This document shows, piece by piece, positions 1,097 to 50,979 of a stretch of DNA of 64,000 nt. The position numbers and the translations under genes were made by a program. The notes under the pieces are model-generated. The model saw nothing but the letters and a program-made list of their open reading frames with translations, did not search any database and was not told where the DNA came from. The stretch comes from Hirudinaria manillensis (lineage: Eukaryota > Annelida > Clitellata > Hirudinida > Hirudinidae): positions 6,040,142-6,104,141 of the forward strand of contig CM067532.1 in the NCBI GenBank assembly GCA_034509925.1, written 5' to 3'. The stretch's first letter is position 1. Every line of letters starts with the position of its first letter.

Positions 1097-1385
1097 TGTA
1101 ATAACCCGGGGTCCTCAAACTAATTATAGAAGGTCAGGTTTATTGAAAGTTGTCAGATGGCTTGGAAGATGTAAAATGCTTAATTGATTAAGTCTTGAAA
1201 TCTGCTGTTTCTATTACTCTCGCTCTGCTTTCCGAGGTAAATCCATTTGTCAAGGTACATAACCAAAGAGTCTGAATAGCACCAATTTAATTCTCAAATT
1301 ATATTGCCACTAAATTTAATTAATTATTAAATTAATTAATCGGCAATATAATTTTAAATATTATTCAATTTCTAGGGATCCAACA
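1097..1385 (-). repeat. 3' LTR (in element orientation)
   Basis: A 289-bp LTR that appears identical to the copy at 2485-2773 by direct reading. It contains a short palindromic AT-rich segment (taattaattattaaattaatt region, about 1318-1340). The end of the second internal ORF runs into it. Confidence 0.88.
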
Positions 1386-2403
1386 CTGCCCCCTCCTTAA
1401 ATCTGTTCGTCCCGAACAGACATCTATTCCCATTTTCATTTTTACTCTCGGAATAGGATCCGATCTTCCAACAATCTCATGGCTGCAAATCCCAGATCCA
1501 TTTGCTTTGTCATCTTCTGGGATTTCTGTCTCCTCCCTTTTACTTCTGCGTCCCGCAAGTTTCAGCCGCGGAACATCGCCATTTCTATGCACGCTCTCCT
1601 GCTCCGCGTTGTCGCCAGATCCCAGACTCTCCTCAGGATCACCTGCTCCACTTTCCATGCTATGCACTCTCCTGAAATCCCGAGCACTCCCTTCTGTTAT
1701 TTCCAATGGAGCCGAAACATCCGCTGGTAAATCCATGGGCTGTTCTGTAGACTCTACTTGTTCCACCATCAAATCCGTGCGCTCCACCGGCAACTCCACG
1801 TGACTCATCAGTAATTCCTCCGGCTGCACCAATAACTCCACATGATCCACCGGCAAACCTACGGGCTCCTCCGAAAGCTCCACTTGCTCCACTAACACCT
1901 CCGTGAGCTCCCCGAGCCCTGCCGACGACTCGACCTGATCTGGTAACTCTATGGGCTCTAACGTCGAGTTCTCTAAGTCTGCCATCACGCACAGAGTTTC
2001 TGGAGACACGCACGCACTGTGGTCGGGTGTGTCTTCTAATGACTCCATCCCAATGCTGCCAGAAACGGTACTTGGAACATCAGAACTCTTCTCAGTAGAG
2101 TTTCCACCAGAAAACCAAAGAGACATCCTGACATGGAACCGCTGTGTTTTCCAAATTGCCCCTAATACTCCTCCTCCACTCCCTAAAATCCTCTGTGCAC
2201 TTTCTCAGAAGATCACGAAATTCTTCCTTTTTTTTATCGGATGGATTCTCAAATTCGTATTCCTCCGGGTCATGGCCATTCTCTGTCAGCCATGCCCCAA
2301 GTCGCTCCCGTATCTCAGCTTTCGTGCCTTTCCAATCCAGGCCACGATCTCTCAATTCCTGTCTCAATCGAGGCACGTACAATTCATCCAAGTACTTCGG
2401 CAT
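1365..2403 (-). CDS. Gag-like region of the LTR element, two overlapping frames
   Basis: The first reading frame (2403-2092, 103 codons) starts with a SAP-type helix-extension-helix motif, seen as a leucine-rich helix, a loop with Gly-Leu-Asp-Trp-Lys-Gly-Thr-Lys and a second helix. This motif is known in gag-type proteins of some animal Gypsy-like elements. A second frame (2126-1365, 253 codons) overlaps it by about 35 bases and is acidic, with imperfect repeats rich in Val-Glu-Leu-Pro-Val around residues 60-130. Whether the shift is programmed frameshifting or a mutation cannot be told here. No enzymatic domain follows. Confidence 0.6.
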
Positions 2404-2484
2404 CCTTCACTTTTCAACTAAACAAGCTTCTACCTTAGTTACTTTTGGACACCCTTTAACTCTAAATCTCACTCCTGACACCAA

Positions 2485-15544: not shown

Positions 15545-16799
15545 TTTGCTGTAAATATTTGTAATCAATATTATGACACAAACCTATCTCATATTTTCAT
15601 TGTCAAAACGTAGGCTTTCTCCAAAGATCATGTAACTAAATTAAAATGCGTCACTTAATATTTATTACATTTTGAAATATTAATAGAAAAATACATTGTA
15701 ACATCAATAATAAAATAACTAGTATCGCGTTCAACAACATTTAAAAAACTGACATTTAAAGTTTGAGCTACTGCCAAAAAGTTTAATTAAATAAAATGAA
15801 CTAATAAAAGCGATAATGGCATTTTACGAATAGCGATATATATTTGTAAAGTACATTACATTATTATAGTAATGAATAGAATTTGCAAGGGTCTAAGACG
15901 CGCCCGCAATGAAGTCAGCTAGTCAGCTAAAGAGGTGAAGGACCGGATGAATTCCGCAGAACTCATAGATGTTATAGACCACCGATGTCCGAATTTTTTC
16001 TTGCGGGCCACATTCAGTAAGATAACGCAAACATCTGGGCTATTCACTCGATATGAAGTACATAGTGCTACACAATTTAAGACATAACCTTTATTTTCAC
16101 ACCTGATTTATTCTTCGAGGCAAAATGATTTAATAAGTAATGGACAATGTCACGGCTGTGTTCTAGACTCCAATCCCACGTCAATGCACCTACATAGCAA
16201 GTTCATGAATATTGCCATCGAGTCTGCTGACTCCACTTTGATCATAAAAAATAATATGTAAATTATTTATTTGTACAGTCGTAGAAAAAATGTTGTGGCC
16301 AACATAAGACGTACATTACGTAAGCCTAACTTAAATTAAAACAATAATTATGAAATCCAACATGATCCAGTGTGAGAAAAACCTTAACATAAACAGAATG
16401 TGGTCGTGCTGAGAATTAAAAAAAAAACATTTACTCCAAATGTTTTTCTTGTGCCTGAAAGTCTCCTCAGCTTTTTTGCCAATCCATTCAAAATTCCAAG
16501 TCCATGTTTATTGCCACGGATGCATTAAGGAATATTATCACTGCAAGTAACAAAATGACATAATCGAGCCAATGTTCACGCGCATTCCGCTACAGTAGAT
16601 GTATTTTAGGTTTAATTCTATTTAAAAAAAGTAATAACACATCTAGGACTTCAAGTCACGAAAATGACATAATCGAGCAAATGTCGATCAAAAACTGTCA
16701 ATTGTCGTGATTGACGTTGAATGGTTACGCGTGATTGAAGAAAAATAATAGCCAAGAACTAATATAAACTCTGGACATTCGAAGGCAGAGCGGTAACGG
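15545..16799. other. Divergent intergenic region between SNAPC4 and the neuropeptide gene
   Basis: About 1.25 kb with no gene. It must contain the promoters of both neighbours. A 24-bp motif occurs twice (16552-16575 and 16661-16684), and a TGACGT half-site of CRE type lies near 16711. A TATAAA at 16763-16768 is only about 35 bases before the start codon, so it may not be the functional TATA box. Confidence 0.55.
16552..16684 (+). promoter_or_regulatory. Duplicated 24-bp motif upstream of the neuropeptide gene
   Basis: Two direct copies at 16552-16575 and 16661-16684 share the core AAAATGACATAATCGAGC and differ by one base over 24. They lie 225 and 116 bases before the neuropeptide start codon. 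The spacing and the near identity suggest paired binding sites for a factor (inference). The core TGACATAA resembles bZIP-type sites. Confidence 0.35.
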
Positions 16800-18272
16800 A
16801 TGAAAATGGAGAATTATCTGGTCTCACTTATTTTGTGCCTTGCTCTGAGTAGCGCAGTCTGTCTAAGCGCCCCAACAAGTAATATTAATGAATTTTTAAA
16901 TCAGAAATGAACGTTGCGTAAAAGCAAATTAACGATTTCTTGAAACGCAGACAAAGAGTTAGAAACAAGAGCACTGCTCGGGGACACTCTAGGTGGACTG
17001 CAAAATCTTGCCGATTTGGACGTTGCCGGAAAAAGGGTCTTGACACTGGGCAAAAGAGATCTCTTGAGCGGTCTGCTTGATGGAACAGAGAACCTTGCCG
17101 ATTTGGACGTTGCTGGTAAAAGGGTCTTGACACTGGGCAAAAGAGACCTCTTGAGCGGTCTCCTTGATGGAACAGAGAACCTTGCCGATTTGGACGTTGC
17201 TGGTAAAAGGGTCTTGACACTGGGCAAAAGAGATCTCTTGAGCGGTCTGCTTGATGGAACAGAGAACCTTGCCGATTTGGACGTTGCTGGTAAAAGGGTC
17301 TTGACACTGGGCAAAAGAGATCTCTTGAGCGGTCTGCTTGATGGAACAGAGAACCTTGCCGATTTGGACGTTGCTGGTAAAAGGGTCTTGACACTGGGCA
17401 AAAGAGATCTCTTGAGCGGTCTGCTTGATGGAACAGAGAACCTTGCCGATTTGGACGTTGCTGGTAAAAGGGTCTTGACACTGGGCAAAAGAGATCTCTT
17501 GAGCGGTCTCCTTGATGGAACAGAGAACCTTGCCGATTTGGACGTTGCTGGTAAAAGGGTCTTGACACTGGGCAAAAGAGATCTCTTGAGCGGTCTGCTT
17601 GATGGAACAGAGAACCTTGCCGATTTGGACGTTGCTGGTAAAAGGGTCTTGACACTGGGCAAAAGAGACCTCTTGAGCGGTCTCCTTGATGGAACAGAGA
17701 ACCTTGCCGATTTGGACGTTGCTGGTAAAAGGGTCTTGACACTGGGCAAAAGAGATCTCTTGAGCGGTCTGCTTGATGGAACAGAGAACCTTGCCGATTT
17801 GGACGTTGCTGGTAAAAGGGTCTTGACACTGGGCAAAAGAGATCTCTTGAGCGGTCTGCTTGATGGAACAGAGAACCTTGCCGATTTGGACGTTGCTGGT
17901 AAAAGAGTCTTGACATTGGGCAAAAGAGATCTCTTGAGCGGTCTGCTTGATGGAACAGAGAACCTTGCCGATTTGGACGTTGCTGGTAAAAGGGTCTTGA
18001 CACTGGGCAAAAGAGATCTCTTGAGCGGTCTGCTTGATGGAACAGAGAACCTTGCCGATTTGGACGTTGCTGGTAAAAGGGTCTTGACACTGGGCAAAAG
18101 AGATCTCTTGAGCGGTCTCCTTGATGGAACAGAGAACCTTGCCGATTTGGACGTTGCTGGTAAAAGGGTCTTGACACTGGGAAAAAGAGATCTCTTGAGC
18201 GGTCTGCTTGATGGAACAGAGAACCTTGCCGATTTGGACGTTGCCGGTAAAAGGGTCTTGACTCTTGGCTAA
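16800..18272 (+). CDS. Tandem-repeat neuropeptide precursor (VLTL-amide and a 19-residue amidated peptide)
   Basis: Two exons: 16800-16878 and 16951-18272. They are separated by a 72-bp phase-1 intron and encode about 466 residues. Exon 1 is almost entirely a signal peptide (M-K-M-E-N-Y followed by LVSLILCLALSSAV) with likely cleavage near Cys-Leu-Ser-Ala. Exon 2 has a short spacer ending in Glu-Thr-Arg, a diverged first peptide (ALLGDTLGGLQNLADLDVA), then fourteen units of 29 residues. Each unit is DLLSGLLDGTENLADLDVA-GKR followed by VLTL-GKR. Gly-Lys-Arg is the classical signal for dibasic cleavage and C-terminal amidation, so the predicted products are fifteen copies of a 19-residue amidated acidic peptide and fifteen of VLTL-amide. 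The last copy ends in Gly at the stop codon, which still allows amidation. I do not recognise the family. Secretion by neurons or gland cells is inferred. Confidence 0.9.
17057..18269 (+). repeat. 87-bp tandem repeat array, 14 units
   Basis: Each unit starts near AGA-GA(T/C)-CTC-TTG-AGC. The period is exactly 87 bp, so every frame stays in register and both strands appear open throughout. I see only synonymous differences between units: GAT or GAC, CTG or CTC, AGG or AGA, CTG or TTG, GGC or GGA. Units 2 and 8 share one variant pair and units 6 and 13 share another, which suggests duplication of a block of six or seven units. Confidence 0.95.
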
Positions 18273-18385
18273 AGACCTCTTGCAACTTTTTCTGGAAAAC
18301 GGACCCTTTACAATATGAATATTTATTCATTAAATTCTTTTAAATTCAATGTTATGCAATGGCATGTAAGTCATGCTGGTCAAAG

Positions 18386-18391
18386 AATAAA
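18386..18391 (+). promoter_or_regulatory. Polyadenylation signal of the neuropeptide gene
   Basis: An AATAAA hexamer 114 bases after the stop codon, in the short AT-rich 3' flank. It is the first canonical signal downstream. Confidence 0.5.
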
Positions 18392-45661: not shown

Positions 45662-48600
45662 ATGAAGTCGAGCTCAGAAGATGCGGTCAAAAAGACAAAA
45701 AGCAAAAATCAAGAAAAGATAGAAAGCAAAAATCAAGAAAAGACAGAATGCAAAAGTCAAGAGAAAATGTCAGATTCTACAAAGCATATCAAGAAAAAGA
45801 AATCCAAAAAGTCTCCTACAAAGGAATCATCAAAGAAACCTCATAAGCATAAGAAAGATAAAAAGGCACCTAAAGAAAAAAAGTCTAAGAAAGGTGCTAG
45901 AGTTGATTGACTGTTAATAATCAATATAATGTTTTTTTTCCTGCTTTTAGGTGATAAAGACAAATCTCCAGCTAAAATCCAAGATAAAACTTCTACTTTA
46001 GACAAGGATGCTTCAAAATCATCCTCTTCTATGCCTAATTCTGTTTCTTTAAAAAGAGCTCCTCATTATCGTCAAAGTACAAAATGTAGTAATAAAGGGT
46101 CTGAAAATTCGAGAGAATCCTCAGTTGAAATAATTTATGAAGAAAAACACAACGTTGTGATGCTATCAGATTCTGAAATGATTATTGATGATAGCGATGA
46201 GACATTGAGAAAGAGACTTGAGGCTTCGGTTCAAAATGCACAATTACGATTAGCAGAAAATTTGGAGGAAAATAAAATTGCATGCAATGATATCAAATCA
46301 ATTGAAGCACCGACTTCCTTGTCTATTCCTGTGAATGATTGTTCAAAGTCCAATGTAACTTTAGAAGGAGGTGTTGTGGATATTTCTGAAATACCTATAC
46401 CTGAGACACTTTTTGCTCCTACTCCAACAAGTGATGTTATTGGACAAAGTAACCAGTCGCATAAAAAGGGTAAAAGACTAGACTTAAAAATTTCAAAGGA
46501 GAGTGTTGCCTTTATTTCATCTGGTCTGAAAATTCAAACTTCACAAAATGAAAATGGAGAAGGCAGTGGCAAAGGTAATTAACTTTAATTTTTTCTTTAT
46601 TCAAAATGGATTTTTCAATGTATTATAAATTTTAATCAGATATTAATTTTGTTTCTAGCCTTCAGTGTTTTTTTTCCAGTCAAGGTAAGTCCTCCCTTAG
46701 ATTCTAGAAAAGAAGAAGACAGAAAAAGTTCATCTAATCCTCAAGATTGCAATTCCAACAAACATGATAAAGATGGTCCTTTGGGAAAAAGTAATGACCG
46801 AACAGAAATAAAAAGTCTAGGTAAACCGTCAAAAATAGAGAAATCGACAGAAACATTAAAAGGGTCTGAATCTCCAAAAATACAAAAAATTGATGTAAAT
46901 AAGAAGAGTCAAGAAGAGTCAGAAAAGAATAAGAAAGACAGCACAAAATCCAAAGAAAGCCTGAAGAGAAGTCGATCTAAGTCCAGGGATGAGTCAAAAT
47001 CAAGGCATTCTTCAAGGAAAAAATCAAAGCGATCGAGGACTAGATCAAAATCAAAAGGTAAATCAAGGAGGTCATCCAGGTCAAAGTCTGAAAGTACCTC
47101 AAGGAGGAGACGATCTGAATCAGATAAAAACTTAAAGAACAAATCGAAAACATCTAAAAGGTCAGAGGATAGGTCAAAAACCAGGGAGGAGTTGAAAGAC
47201 AAGTCAGCAAGGGCTAGATCAAGGTCAAAGAGATCCAGGGATGGCTCGGAGGATAGAGGATCGAAGAAGAGGTCGAGAAGATCGAAGGATAGAAAATCAA
47301 GGAAAAGATCAAAGGACAGGTCGAAATCTAAAGAGAAGACCAAAGAATCCAGAGACAAATCAAAGAGGGCTTCTAGTAGAGGTCGTTCCAAATCAAGAAA
47401 TTGTTCCAAATCAGAAGAAAAACCCAGGAAGTCGAGGGACCGTTCAAAAGCCAGAAATCGTTCCAAATCAAAAGACAGGGCCAGGAAGTCAAGAGAAAGT
47501 TCTAAACCCAGAAATCGTTCCAAATCGAAAGATAGGGCCAGGAAATCAAGAGAACGTTCAAAACCCAGAAATCGTTCTAGTTCGAAAGATAGGATTAGGA
47601 AGTCACGAGAAAGATCTGCTGGTTCTAAAAGGTATTGAACATTTAAGAATTATAAGATTTTAATTATCTGCTTTGTATTTGGTCCAAAAAAGCAACAGCT
47701 ACTGAGCACAAGAATGTTGGGTAGATCGATATTGATATTCCTTAAACAACATTTTAATTCACCCTTAAATTAAATTAAACTATTAAAGGCTATTTATTAG
47801 AAACTGTGAAATAAAAATTTCACTGAATTTGTTCTTGAAGCAAAAGATCGGGCAGCAAGGATGATCAACCAAGCTTCAAGATAGATAAAGTGAAACTCAG
47901 ACAAATAGCAATGTGAGAATTTGTATGCATTATCTTTATTTTATTAATTGAAATGGGTGTGGGATAGGATCATCTCAAATCTCTAACATTATGAAAGGCA
48001 TATCTCGTAACATAAAGTTATATCTCGTTTTGAGATTGTTAAGACTATTTAGTTTATTCAAGTTTTTGTGAATCAAATAGGAATTTGTGTAATTGTTGCA
48101 ATAGGCCCATTCTGTTGAAAATAAAATAGAAATTTTAGATCAATCCTTTTAGATTAAGTTCTTGTAGAGATCTATTAATGTAATAAAAATTTCTTCATGT
48201 TATGCCATAAATGTTTCTTCTGTGAAATAATATGCTTATTTCAATAGAAAAAATGCCCTCCAAAATGCCAATCTTGCTGTTCGCCAAACCACTACCGTGA
48301 CTACCACTACTAAGCCTGAAGAAACGCCTCTTCCAAAATCTGGTGGAAAAACTCTTGAGGAACTTACAGGTTATTTTTTTATTCAAAGACTTTAATTTCT
48401 TGGCTTTAATAGCTTTTCAAATCACTGAATTGAATGCTATAAATCATTCAGAATTCTGCAAAAAGATTGCTGAAGTCAGTGCAGAAGAAATACAAGGTTT
48501 TATAGATGGCAGTACACAACTCATTGATGAAGAGGAAATGCCTTTTATCCCAGCTAGAACTAATAAGGACATGAAGGTTTGATGAGAATACCAGACTTCT

Positions 48601-50979
48601 AAATCTTTTTGTTACACTTGTTGGCAAGTCCTAATTATGATTTTTTACAGAATGGTCCCATTTTGAATCAAATGACTCTGCAAGAAAAAATGGTTCAAAT
48701 GGCAGAGATCAGCTCCCTATTTCCAGTTTCCAGTGGGAATGTACACAGGGAAAGAGAGACAACTAATGACACTGGAGTTGTTGACGTTGATGGAATGGCA
48801 CCAATTGATGTAAGTAAACTTATACATGATGAATGAGATAAGATCATCTTAATATTTTTGTTCTAAAAGGCACTACAATCCGAACCAAGTGCTGCAGACA
48901 TTTCAGTACCGAAATCATCATTTTCAAAAGATGAATTGATGGTAGGAATGTTTGTCAAATTTTTAATTAGCTGTAGTAATGTTGAAAGGGGCTATTTTTT
49001 GCTTTGTTGCTTCACAAACAGCAATTCAAACTCTAATTTATATCCACAATTAGAACAGATGAGAATGCATTATGATTAACAATTCCACTATCTTTGTTAA
49101 TTCACTTTCAGAATATATTAATGTACCACATCCCATTTTAATCCAACCAGATGTCTCGATGGGTGAGCGCAAAGGAGATTCCAGGGCAGTTCACGGGTTC
49201 AACCAACGTGCAAACTCTTTCTCAGCAAGAATTGTCTGGCAGTTATCCCCTTTGGGTTAAAAAGGTTTGATTTGACATTGATTTGTTTTATATCACGGAA
49301 TCCCAAGGAAATGACGTATGCATCAAACCGACTTAACTTAATTCTGCCAAGTCCTTAATCATCCTCGATTGTCAATCAATTCCCTTTGAAAACTCTCTAC
49401 GTTTAACATTATTCATAAACAAATTGAACGGTCACAACCAACGCTTCATTCATCTTATCCACTTGTGAATAAATCTCTGCAACAAGTTTTCTCTTACTGC
49501 AAAATATTTTTGGTCTGGTACTTCATACCTACAAAATTACATTCAGACCAAAAAAATTTTGCTTTGGCCCTTTTTAAAAGGACATCTGCAAGAGAAAGCT
49601 TGTTGATAGCAGATAAATTCAAAAAGCTTCTTGTCTCAACTTGATGCCACGCTACAGCTTCCTAATAATGCAGCTGTCACCGTTTCAATCCACAGAACGT
49701 AAGTGATGAAAATCGGCACTGTTTTTTCATTTGGTCGTTGTTAGTTTAATGACTTCAAAAAGCATTTGTTAGGAGACTTAGTAAGCCGTGTGAAATGTTC
49801 TTATTTAAGGATGCTCTAAACAACGCACCACCTCTATCGGGTGGCATCGGAAAATTGCTGCTGAAGAAAATGGGATGGAAGGAGGGTGAGGGTCTTGGAA
49901 AGAACAATGAAGGAATGGTAGCTCCACTCAGCATTGACATAAAGACTGACAGGAAAGGTTAGATATTCATTTTAATGAGCCATTTATTTTCCAAATATTC
50001 TTAAATTTATTGAGAATTGCAAATTTGTGACAGGATTAGTCTCCCCAGAAGAAGATCCTGATAGGATTAAAAAATTGGCTTTGGAGAGAGCTTTAATGCA
50101 CCAAGCCATGTTGAAACAAGCAATGTTCCAACAGGCACTTGTGAGACAAGCACTATTGATGAGACCAAATCTTCAGAACCAGGGCACCTCACAATTCCCC
50201 CAGATGCCTTCGCCATATGGCATGTTCCCTCTCCGCATGCCTCCTCCCAGGCCGAGCCTGTTACCCGCCCCTACGCCAAGCCCATTACCTGCTCCTATGC
50301 CAAGCCCATTACCTGCTCCTACACCAAGCCCATTACCTGCCCCTATGCCGAGCCCGTTGCCCGCTCCTATGCCAAGTCTACCACCTCCTCCTCCCTGTCT
50401 GCAAGATGTTTCCGAAGTCTCAGACTTTCCATGTAAGCTTTCTAATAATATACATGATTTTATCTGTACTTCAAACTTAATGTTTGTAATTGAAGTGGGT
50501 AAACATCCAGTTTCCATCCTGACTGAGATCTGTTCAAAGAACTACTGGGATCCACCAGAGTTCATTCTTCTTGAGGAGTCAGGACCAGCACATAATAAGA
50601 TGTTCAAATTTAAGGTCAATATTTTATGTTCTTACTAAATTTTAAGGTAGATAATGTGACAAAAAAAAATTGTCCCTTCTCTATGTAAGTCAAGAATTGT
50701 TGAATGTATAGGATAAAGTGGACATATACTGCCAATCATACATAACTTTATTCTGCATTAATTATTCTGATCCATATAATGTAATTTTTGAGCTTGTGGT
50801 ATATTTGGTTTTAATTCTAGGAATACTAATGGCTTTCACTACTTATTTCACAGATAATACTGAATGGAATGGAGTTTGTATCTCCTAATGGATGCCCCCA
50901 AAAGAAAACTGCAAAATTGGAAGCTGCCATTGTCTGCTTAAAACATTTAGGACTTCTGCCTCACATGCCCAATAATTGA
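45662..50979 (+). CDS. SON: SON-like splicing and DNA/RNA-binding protein (RS domain, G-patch, dsRBD)
   Basis: About 12 exons: 45662-45893, 45951-46574, 46680-47631, about 48247-48369, 48461-48576, 48651-48809, about 48870-48940, 49151-49263, 49810-49958, 50033-50432, 50496-50614 and 50854-50979. They encode roughly 1,050 residues; human SON is over 2,400. The N terminus is Lys-rich. Exon 3 is an Arg/Ser domain ending in 19-residue repeats (RKSRERSKPRNRSKSKDRA). A conserved stretch with AKEIPGQFTGSTNVQTLSQ, also present in human SON, precedes a G-patch (SGGIGKLLLKKMGWKEGEG). A Pro-rich linker follows, then a C-terminal dsRBD (GKHPVSILTEICSKNYWDPP to the end). SON is a nuclear-speckle scaffold needed for splicing of weak introns. 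The large repeat region of vertebrate SON is absent. Confidence 0.92.

Follow-up and report, generated by a model that had tools for sequence, protein, structure and literature searches.

The window analyzed here, a 64,000-nucleotide stretch of the Hirudinaria manillensis genome (C7:6040142-6104141), carries a gene whose product has the layout of a multi-copy amidated secreted peptide precursor, and its peptides probably act within the leech as endogenous signals, either neuropeptides or hormones. The gene belongs to a family with at least five intact members, which together encode 81 copies of a 19-residue peptide, paired with as many copies of the tetrapeptide VL[T/S]L. The kind of precursor is known; the leech peptides and the gene family appear to be new. 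The initial annotation, which called the locus a neuropeptide precursor, had the anatomy and the gene model right, and its assignment of the product to the neuropeptides stands as likely.

Anatomy of the precursor gene

Tandem Repeats Finder recovers a single strong array at positions 17007-18275 of the window, with a period of 87 bp, 14.6 copies, 97% matches, and a score of 2433. Joining positions 16800-16878 to 16951-18272 yields a translation of 466 amino acids that is free of internal stops. Splicing is needed because the unspliced frame runs into a TGA within the intron. In window coordinates, the features of the gene are as follows.

16800..16878 (+): exon 1, ATG and signal-peptide-like stretch MKMENYLVSLILCLALSSAVCLSAPT, with a hydrophobic core; present in all five paralogues
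16879..16950 (+): intron, GT-AG, 72 bp; a 65-bp intron lies at the equivalent position in paralogue C10d
16951..18272 (+): exon 2, the remaining precursor through the TAA stop, in the spliced reading
16971..17027 (+): diverged first 19-mer ALLGDTLGGLQNLADLDVA, a single Arg before and GKR after, from the spliced translation
17058..18269 (+): 14 units of DLLSGLLDGTENLADLDVA-GKR-VLTL-G(KR), the final one Gly-stop, from the repeat finder and translation
18386..18391 (+): AATAAA polyadenylation-like signal, downstream of the TAA stop

The precursor begins with MKMENYLVSLILCLALSSAVCLSAPT and continues through NKELETR and the diverged 19-mer into 14 identical 19-mers that alternate with VLTL, for a content of 15 19-mers (14 of DLLSGLLDGTENLADLDVA and one of ALLGDTLGGLQNLADLDVA) and 15 VLTL, with GKR at the joins. 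An amide-donor Gly directly follows each 19-mer and each VLTL, the final VLTL being followed by Gly-stop in place of Gly-Lys-Arg. The 14 units have one protein sequence and six distinct DNA sequences, and there is no Cys in the precursor downstream of the signal region. Long open reading frames are also present in three other frames of the array, because the 87-bp period is a multiple of three. The computed [M+H]+ is 1942.997 for DLLSGLLDGTENLADLDVA-NH2 and 444.318 for VLTL-amide. The corresponding values are 1973.007 for the Thr form of the 19-mer, 1868.012 for the first unit, and 430.302 for VLSL-amide.

Both the repeat finder and the spliced translation confirm the repeat-encoded precursor that the initial annotation had described, and its splice from 16878 to 16951 is supported by the open reading, the GT-AG ends, and the corresponding intron of C10d. 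The 14 identical units and the diverged 19-residue peptide behind a single Arg were likewise correctly identified. Two of its statements need adjusting: of the fifteen copies given for each peptide, the 15 VLTL are present as stated but the 19-mers are strictly 14 identical copies and one diverged copy, and the predicted release of every peptide through Gly-Lys-Arg applies to nearly all sites in this precursor but not to the last unit, which ends in Gly-stop.

On the minus strand, a frame with a Myb domain (13.7-14.0 kb) flanks the gene on one side and frames with HECT domains (20.3-22.1 kb) flank it on the other. Elsewhere in the window, positions 1365-2406 (-) hold a frame that by eye is SAP-like (YLDELYVPRLRQELRDRGLDWKGTKAEIRERL), followed by a Glu-Leu-Pro-rich imperfect-repeat frame for which there is no Pfam match; positions 47384-47611 (+) hold four copies of a 57-bp repeat within an Arg/Ser/Lys-rich frame; and positions 50240-50392 (+) hold a 24-bp repeat whose Pro-rich translated units, inside a 219-residue frame, resemble PAPMPSPL.

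Gene family, sequence constraint, and upstream element

The initial annotation overlooked that this gene belongs to a family. A search of the whole assembly (148.4 Mb in 23 contigs, with all 46 of the 46 candidates scored and counts taken as lower bounds) identified no fewer than five intact genes, C7 carrying one and C10 four, along with at least two remnants, one at L010 5938-6075 and one on C3 in L012. The intact genes are listed below, where L009, L010, and L011 (from C10), like L012 (from C3), are extracted stretches with their own numbering.

C7: the window gene, exons 16800-16878 and 16951-18272 (+); 15 units, 72-bp intron
C10a: L009:2529-3920; 15 units, intronless
C10b: L010:441-1223; 8 units, intronless
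C10c: L010:3246-5507 (C10:6436246 onwards); 25 units, intronless
C10d: L011, reverse strand; 18 units, 65-bp GT-AG intron

A 53-amino-acid N-terminal query found the C7 and C10 loci and nothing further in the genome. A COX1 match seen on nuclear C9 (3026446-3027786) equals the mitochondrial C23:31-1371 in score and in its count of in-frame TGA codons, and reflects either an assembly artefact or the recent insertion of mitochondrial DNA. On the mitochondrial contig, reading frames run in the order cox1-cox2-cox3-nad6-cob, an order seen in annelids; of these, cox1 was identified by a family search.

Repeat number ranges from 8 to 25 per gene, and in each of the five the count of 19-mers equals that of VL[T/S]L. 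The combined 81 19-mers comprise 53 copies of DLLSGLLDGTENLADLDVA and 28 variants, and the 81 tetrapeptides comprise 59 VLTL and 22 VLSL, with no change other than this Thr/Ser exchange. The three intronless genes retain the donor start GTAA, which leads directly into the repeat unit, and Ser-Lys-Arg precedes their first 19-mer. Donor bases would be missing from a retrocopied, spliced gene, and we therefore infer that the intron was lost by genomic deletion. The codon spelling of the arrays is locus-specific, with C7, C10a to C10c, and C10d each having its own, and judged by this spelling the arrays are homogenized locus by locus, as in concerted evolution. Within the 25-unit array of C10c, a similar variant pattern recurs about 1131 bp (13 units) apart, which suggests an internal block duplication.

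Differences among the repeat units are concentrated at silent positions. Comparison of the consensus units of C7 and C10a shows 12 base changes in 81, spread over 11 codons, none of them nonsynonymous, and the C10b and C10c consensus units equal that of C10a. The C10d unit is separated from that of C7 by 14 base changes and from that of C10a by 9, four codons being nonsynonymous in each comparison. Per site, pN/pS among the 79 main units comes to 0.12 (0.10 by cells), and the true value is slightly below 0.12, because one of the eight variants counted as nonsynonymous is an artefact, a two-base Leu-Leu change scored one base at a time. For the C7-C10d pair, the main consensus unit has dN/dS of 0.089/0.628 and the N-terminus 0.110/0.539; for the first unit, dN is 0.119 and dS is 0.651, and NLADLDVA is identical. 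By these measures the peptide sequences are under purifying selection, and such selection over five paralogues makes it very likely that the reading frames are truly coding.

The predicted processing sites are preserved as well. Throughout the family, the repeated peptides are bounded by basic cleavage sites and an amide-donor Gly, as in a multi-copy amidated precursor. This Gly is intact at 161 of 162 sites (156 GKR, 4 GK-stop, and 1 G-stop), and the array ends retain it even where Lys-Arg is gone. The remaining site, after the first unit of C10d, reads GNR, and because the unit ends in this way it is probably not amidated.

A second form of conservation lies upstream of the coding region. 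In the window, the elements concerned are as follows.

16556..16575 (+): element TGACATAATCGAGCCAATGT, copy 1, exact, at -244 in C7, from a genome-wide 20-mer search
16665..16684 (+): element TGACATAATCGAGCCAATGT, copy 2, one mismatch, at the position common to the five genes
16763..16768 (+): TATA-like box, 37 bp upstream of the first ATG, found in all five genes in an upstream alignment (TATAAG in C10d)

The 20-nt element occurs 128 to 153 bp upstream of the ATG in all five genes, with one mismatch in C7, where the two copies are 109 bp apart. Allowing at most one mismatch, there are six sites in the genome, every one at the five family genes; with two mismatches there is one additional, unrelated site, and a reversed control gives one site. 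In the upstream alignment of the five genes the element is conspicuous against diverged surrounding sequence, and common ancestry alone could account for retention of part of it.

Relationship to described peptides

Searches for described relatives were empty within the collections covered. Pfam contains no match for exon 2 (E up to 0.01) or for the first 113 residues (E up to 10), and the exon-2 frame has none at E up to 1 among the 8000 candidates listed from a protein collection, which need not include leeches. DLLSGLLDGT, NLADLDVA, VLTLGKR, and DLDVAGKR do not occur in the main texts of the open-access literature. The peptides and the gene family thus appear new within the literature and database searches made, and it is to these searches that the label "apparently undescribed" in the initial annotation applies. 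An earlier description, if one exists, would most likely be in the survey of neuropeptides in Capitella and Helobdella by Veenstra (2011). The pedal peptide/orcokinin type was set aside because its peptides have free C-termini.

Several weaker candidates were set aside. Two matches of the 29-residue unit to solved structures (E of 0.42 and 0.97) were taken as chance, and the doubled first unit reached only below-cutoff Pfam matches at E up to 10 (Latarcin, E of 0.074; INTS4_8HBD, E of 0.16). A search for the adipokinetic hormone family, run without a positive control, returned no match. The hydrophobic moments of three leech 19-mers, evaluated at the helix angle for an amphipathic helix, were not above those of shuffles (P of 0.11, 0.19, and 0.54), which counts against the endogenous-signal reading. 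In the main text of a leech central nervous system mass-spectrometry paper, the number 1943 is absent and 1942 appears only within a PubMed number.

The closest resemblance found is to PDF/cerebrin, as represented by the published peptides of scallop (PMC5996578), oyster (PMC4200219), Biomphalaria (PMC5455113), and Platynereis (PMC11008795). These peptides have 17 residues against 19 in the leech, so similar in length, and both have an amidated end, which in the leech is predicted. In a gapless C-terminal alignment, the main 19-mer shares 7, 6, 5, and 5 of 17 residues with the four, respectively. Seven positions are invariant among the four lophotrochozoan sequences given in these sources (N1, G3, T4, D6, P12, D13, and L14); the main 19-mer keeps four of the seven, Gly3, Asp6, Asp13, and Leu14, and is not filed as a PDF because Asn1, Thr4, and Pro12 are absent. 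Of the seven, T4, D13, and L14 are present in the C10d first unit.

The similarity exceeds both composition-matched chance and that to the other families in a comparison panel. Against shuffles of its own letters, the main unit gives P of 0.0014 when end-anchored and 0.017 at any offset, and the five leech forms give 0.0014 to 0.0029 and 0.017 to 0.042. The four PDFs, which are mutually related, take ranks 1 to 4 for the main unit (P of 0.00012, 0.0028, 0.0088, and 0.014, uncorrected for multiple testing) in a panel of 35 that we selected from published peptides of the scallop, oyster, and Biomphalaria sources, together with the Platynereis PDF, some of them unamidated and with many short ones omitted; the next is calcitonin-type (P of 0.03). 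For each of two first units, the PDFs occupy ranks 1, 2, 3, and 5 of the 35. Because PDF was picked by eye before testing and the panel was self-selected, the ranking is suggestive and not proof, and it points to a main 19-mer that may be described as PDF-like, but not as PDF. The initial annotation recognized neither peptide; no described family was indeed found, but the 19-mer does resemble PDF/cerebrin in the C-terminal alignment.

The precursor does not match Pfam Pigment_DH (PF06324), a model that is of no help because doubled PDF peptides of Platynereis and scallop also match no Pfam family. A below-cutoff PF06324 match on C7 (E of 2.19) was dropped; it lies in a 40-residue frame without dibasic sites. 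Queries with known PDF peptides found no separate canonical PDF gene in the genome, a result that is uninformative because a control with five published peptides (allatotropin, conopressin, sCAP/pyrokinin-like, allatostatin C, and myomodulin) found nothing either. There are 27 matches to pieces of class B (7tm_2) receptors in the genome.

The PDF-type precursor described for starfish carries two peptides (PMC4772807) and the annelid and Aplysia cerebrin precursors one 17-residue stretch (PMC2762978), as opposed to 8 to 25 copies per precursor in the leech. The family might be a radically amplified PDF/cerebrin system, with 81 copies in five genes, one common promoter element, and replacement of the conserved Pro by Ala, a proposal that we regard as tentative and somewhat doubtful.

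Predicted processing, alternative functions, and precedents

Under the endogenous-signal reading, the signal peptide would route the precursor to the regulated secretory pathway, where convertases would cleave after Lys-Arg and after the one Arg, a carboxypeptidase would remove the basic residues, and PAM would convert each exposed Gly to an amide. The C7 precursor would then yield about 15 acidic 19-mer amides and about 15 VLTL-amides. The 19-mer amide is the most likely receptor ligand, a neuropeptide or peptide hormone expected to be expressed in neurons if the former, and to act via a G-protein-coupled receptor; growth of the arrays and duplication of the genes would raise peptide output. 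The genome contains five matches to a PAM-type monooxygenase domain (PF03712), which show the domain but not an assigned enzyme, because related monooxygenases presumably may match as well and the five may include non-amidating enzymes.

It is an even question whether the 19-mer is the sole bioactive peptide and VL[T/S]L a processing spacer, a possibility that subdivides the endogenous-signal reading and does not exclude it. The tetrapeptide is short and tolerates the Thr/Ser swap (59 to 22), as a spacer might, but it shows no further change among 81 copies and a Gly follows all of them. What the initial annotation called an unusual product pair can therefore be read equally well as one bioactive 19-mer and a conserved short spacer.

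The main rival is an exocrine peptide, from salivary gland or from skin or mucus, released in bulk to the host or the environment, with copies serving yield and the 19-mer hitting a host target; we consider this unlikely. H. manillensis feeds on blood, and 81 near-identical copies over five genes, as identical amplified units and tandem genes, would suit a bulk product. The LDV triplet, in ADLDVA of the 19-mer, is also found in integrin ligands and was counted in favor of the same interpretation. Set against these points is the Gly-Lys-Arg/amide layout at nearly every site, which is typical of endogenous regulatory peptides. In the literature, PMC11724943 cites a neuropeptide Y-like peptide of the land-leech salivary gland, which favors an exocrine role, whereas the main text of a Hirudo salivary paper (PMC7191736) contains no "amidat-" words and a single "neuropeptide," concerning mammals, a slight point against it. 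It is very improbable that the arrays encode a secreted protein of repetitive sequence with a structural or filler role, such as in cocoon or mucus, and that this protein is never cleaved into peptides: tandem identical repeats and locus-specific homogenization would fit such a protein, but an amide-donor Gly and a dibasic site close nearly every repeat, both peptides are conserved, Gly is kept at array ends where Lys-Arg is lost, and repeat number varies from 8 to 25.

Multi-copy amplification has a precedent in annelids. The two Platynereis DH44 precursors carry 13 and 16 copies of a peptide that is single in molluscs and insects, according to PMC3890597; like the leech family, they multiply within an annelid precursor a peptide that elsewhere occurs once. 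The DH44-related ELH of Biomphalaria falls outside the best nine of the 35 panel peptides for all three leech queries. The scallop MIP, LASGLVamide, and PFVx7amide precursors described in PMC5996578 also hold many amidated peptides each, as is predicted for the leech, but their copies are variants of a pattern and have other sequences, whereas in the leech precursors near-identical 19-mers and a tetrapeptide take turns, the five paralogues having 81 such pairs between them.

If real, this would be a peptide system, apparently undescribed, in leeches, a classical preparation for the physiology of identified neurons, and peptidomics could draw on the exact masses given above. Because its arrays are homogenized by locus and its upstream element is seen at no other genes, the family of five would offer a clean case for the evolution of dose by repeat growth. 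Were the product salivary, it would be a new secreted peptide amide of the leech. If the link to PDF is true, a conserved circadian and arousal peptide, normally encoded once or twice per precursor, would be shown capable of massive copy amplification. The amplified-PDF reading, if it holds, would permit a test of how the dose of such a peptide is reset in an animal that feeds on blood, and would provide a leech handle on PDF signaling.
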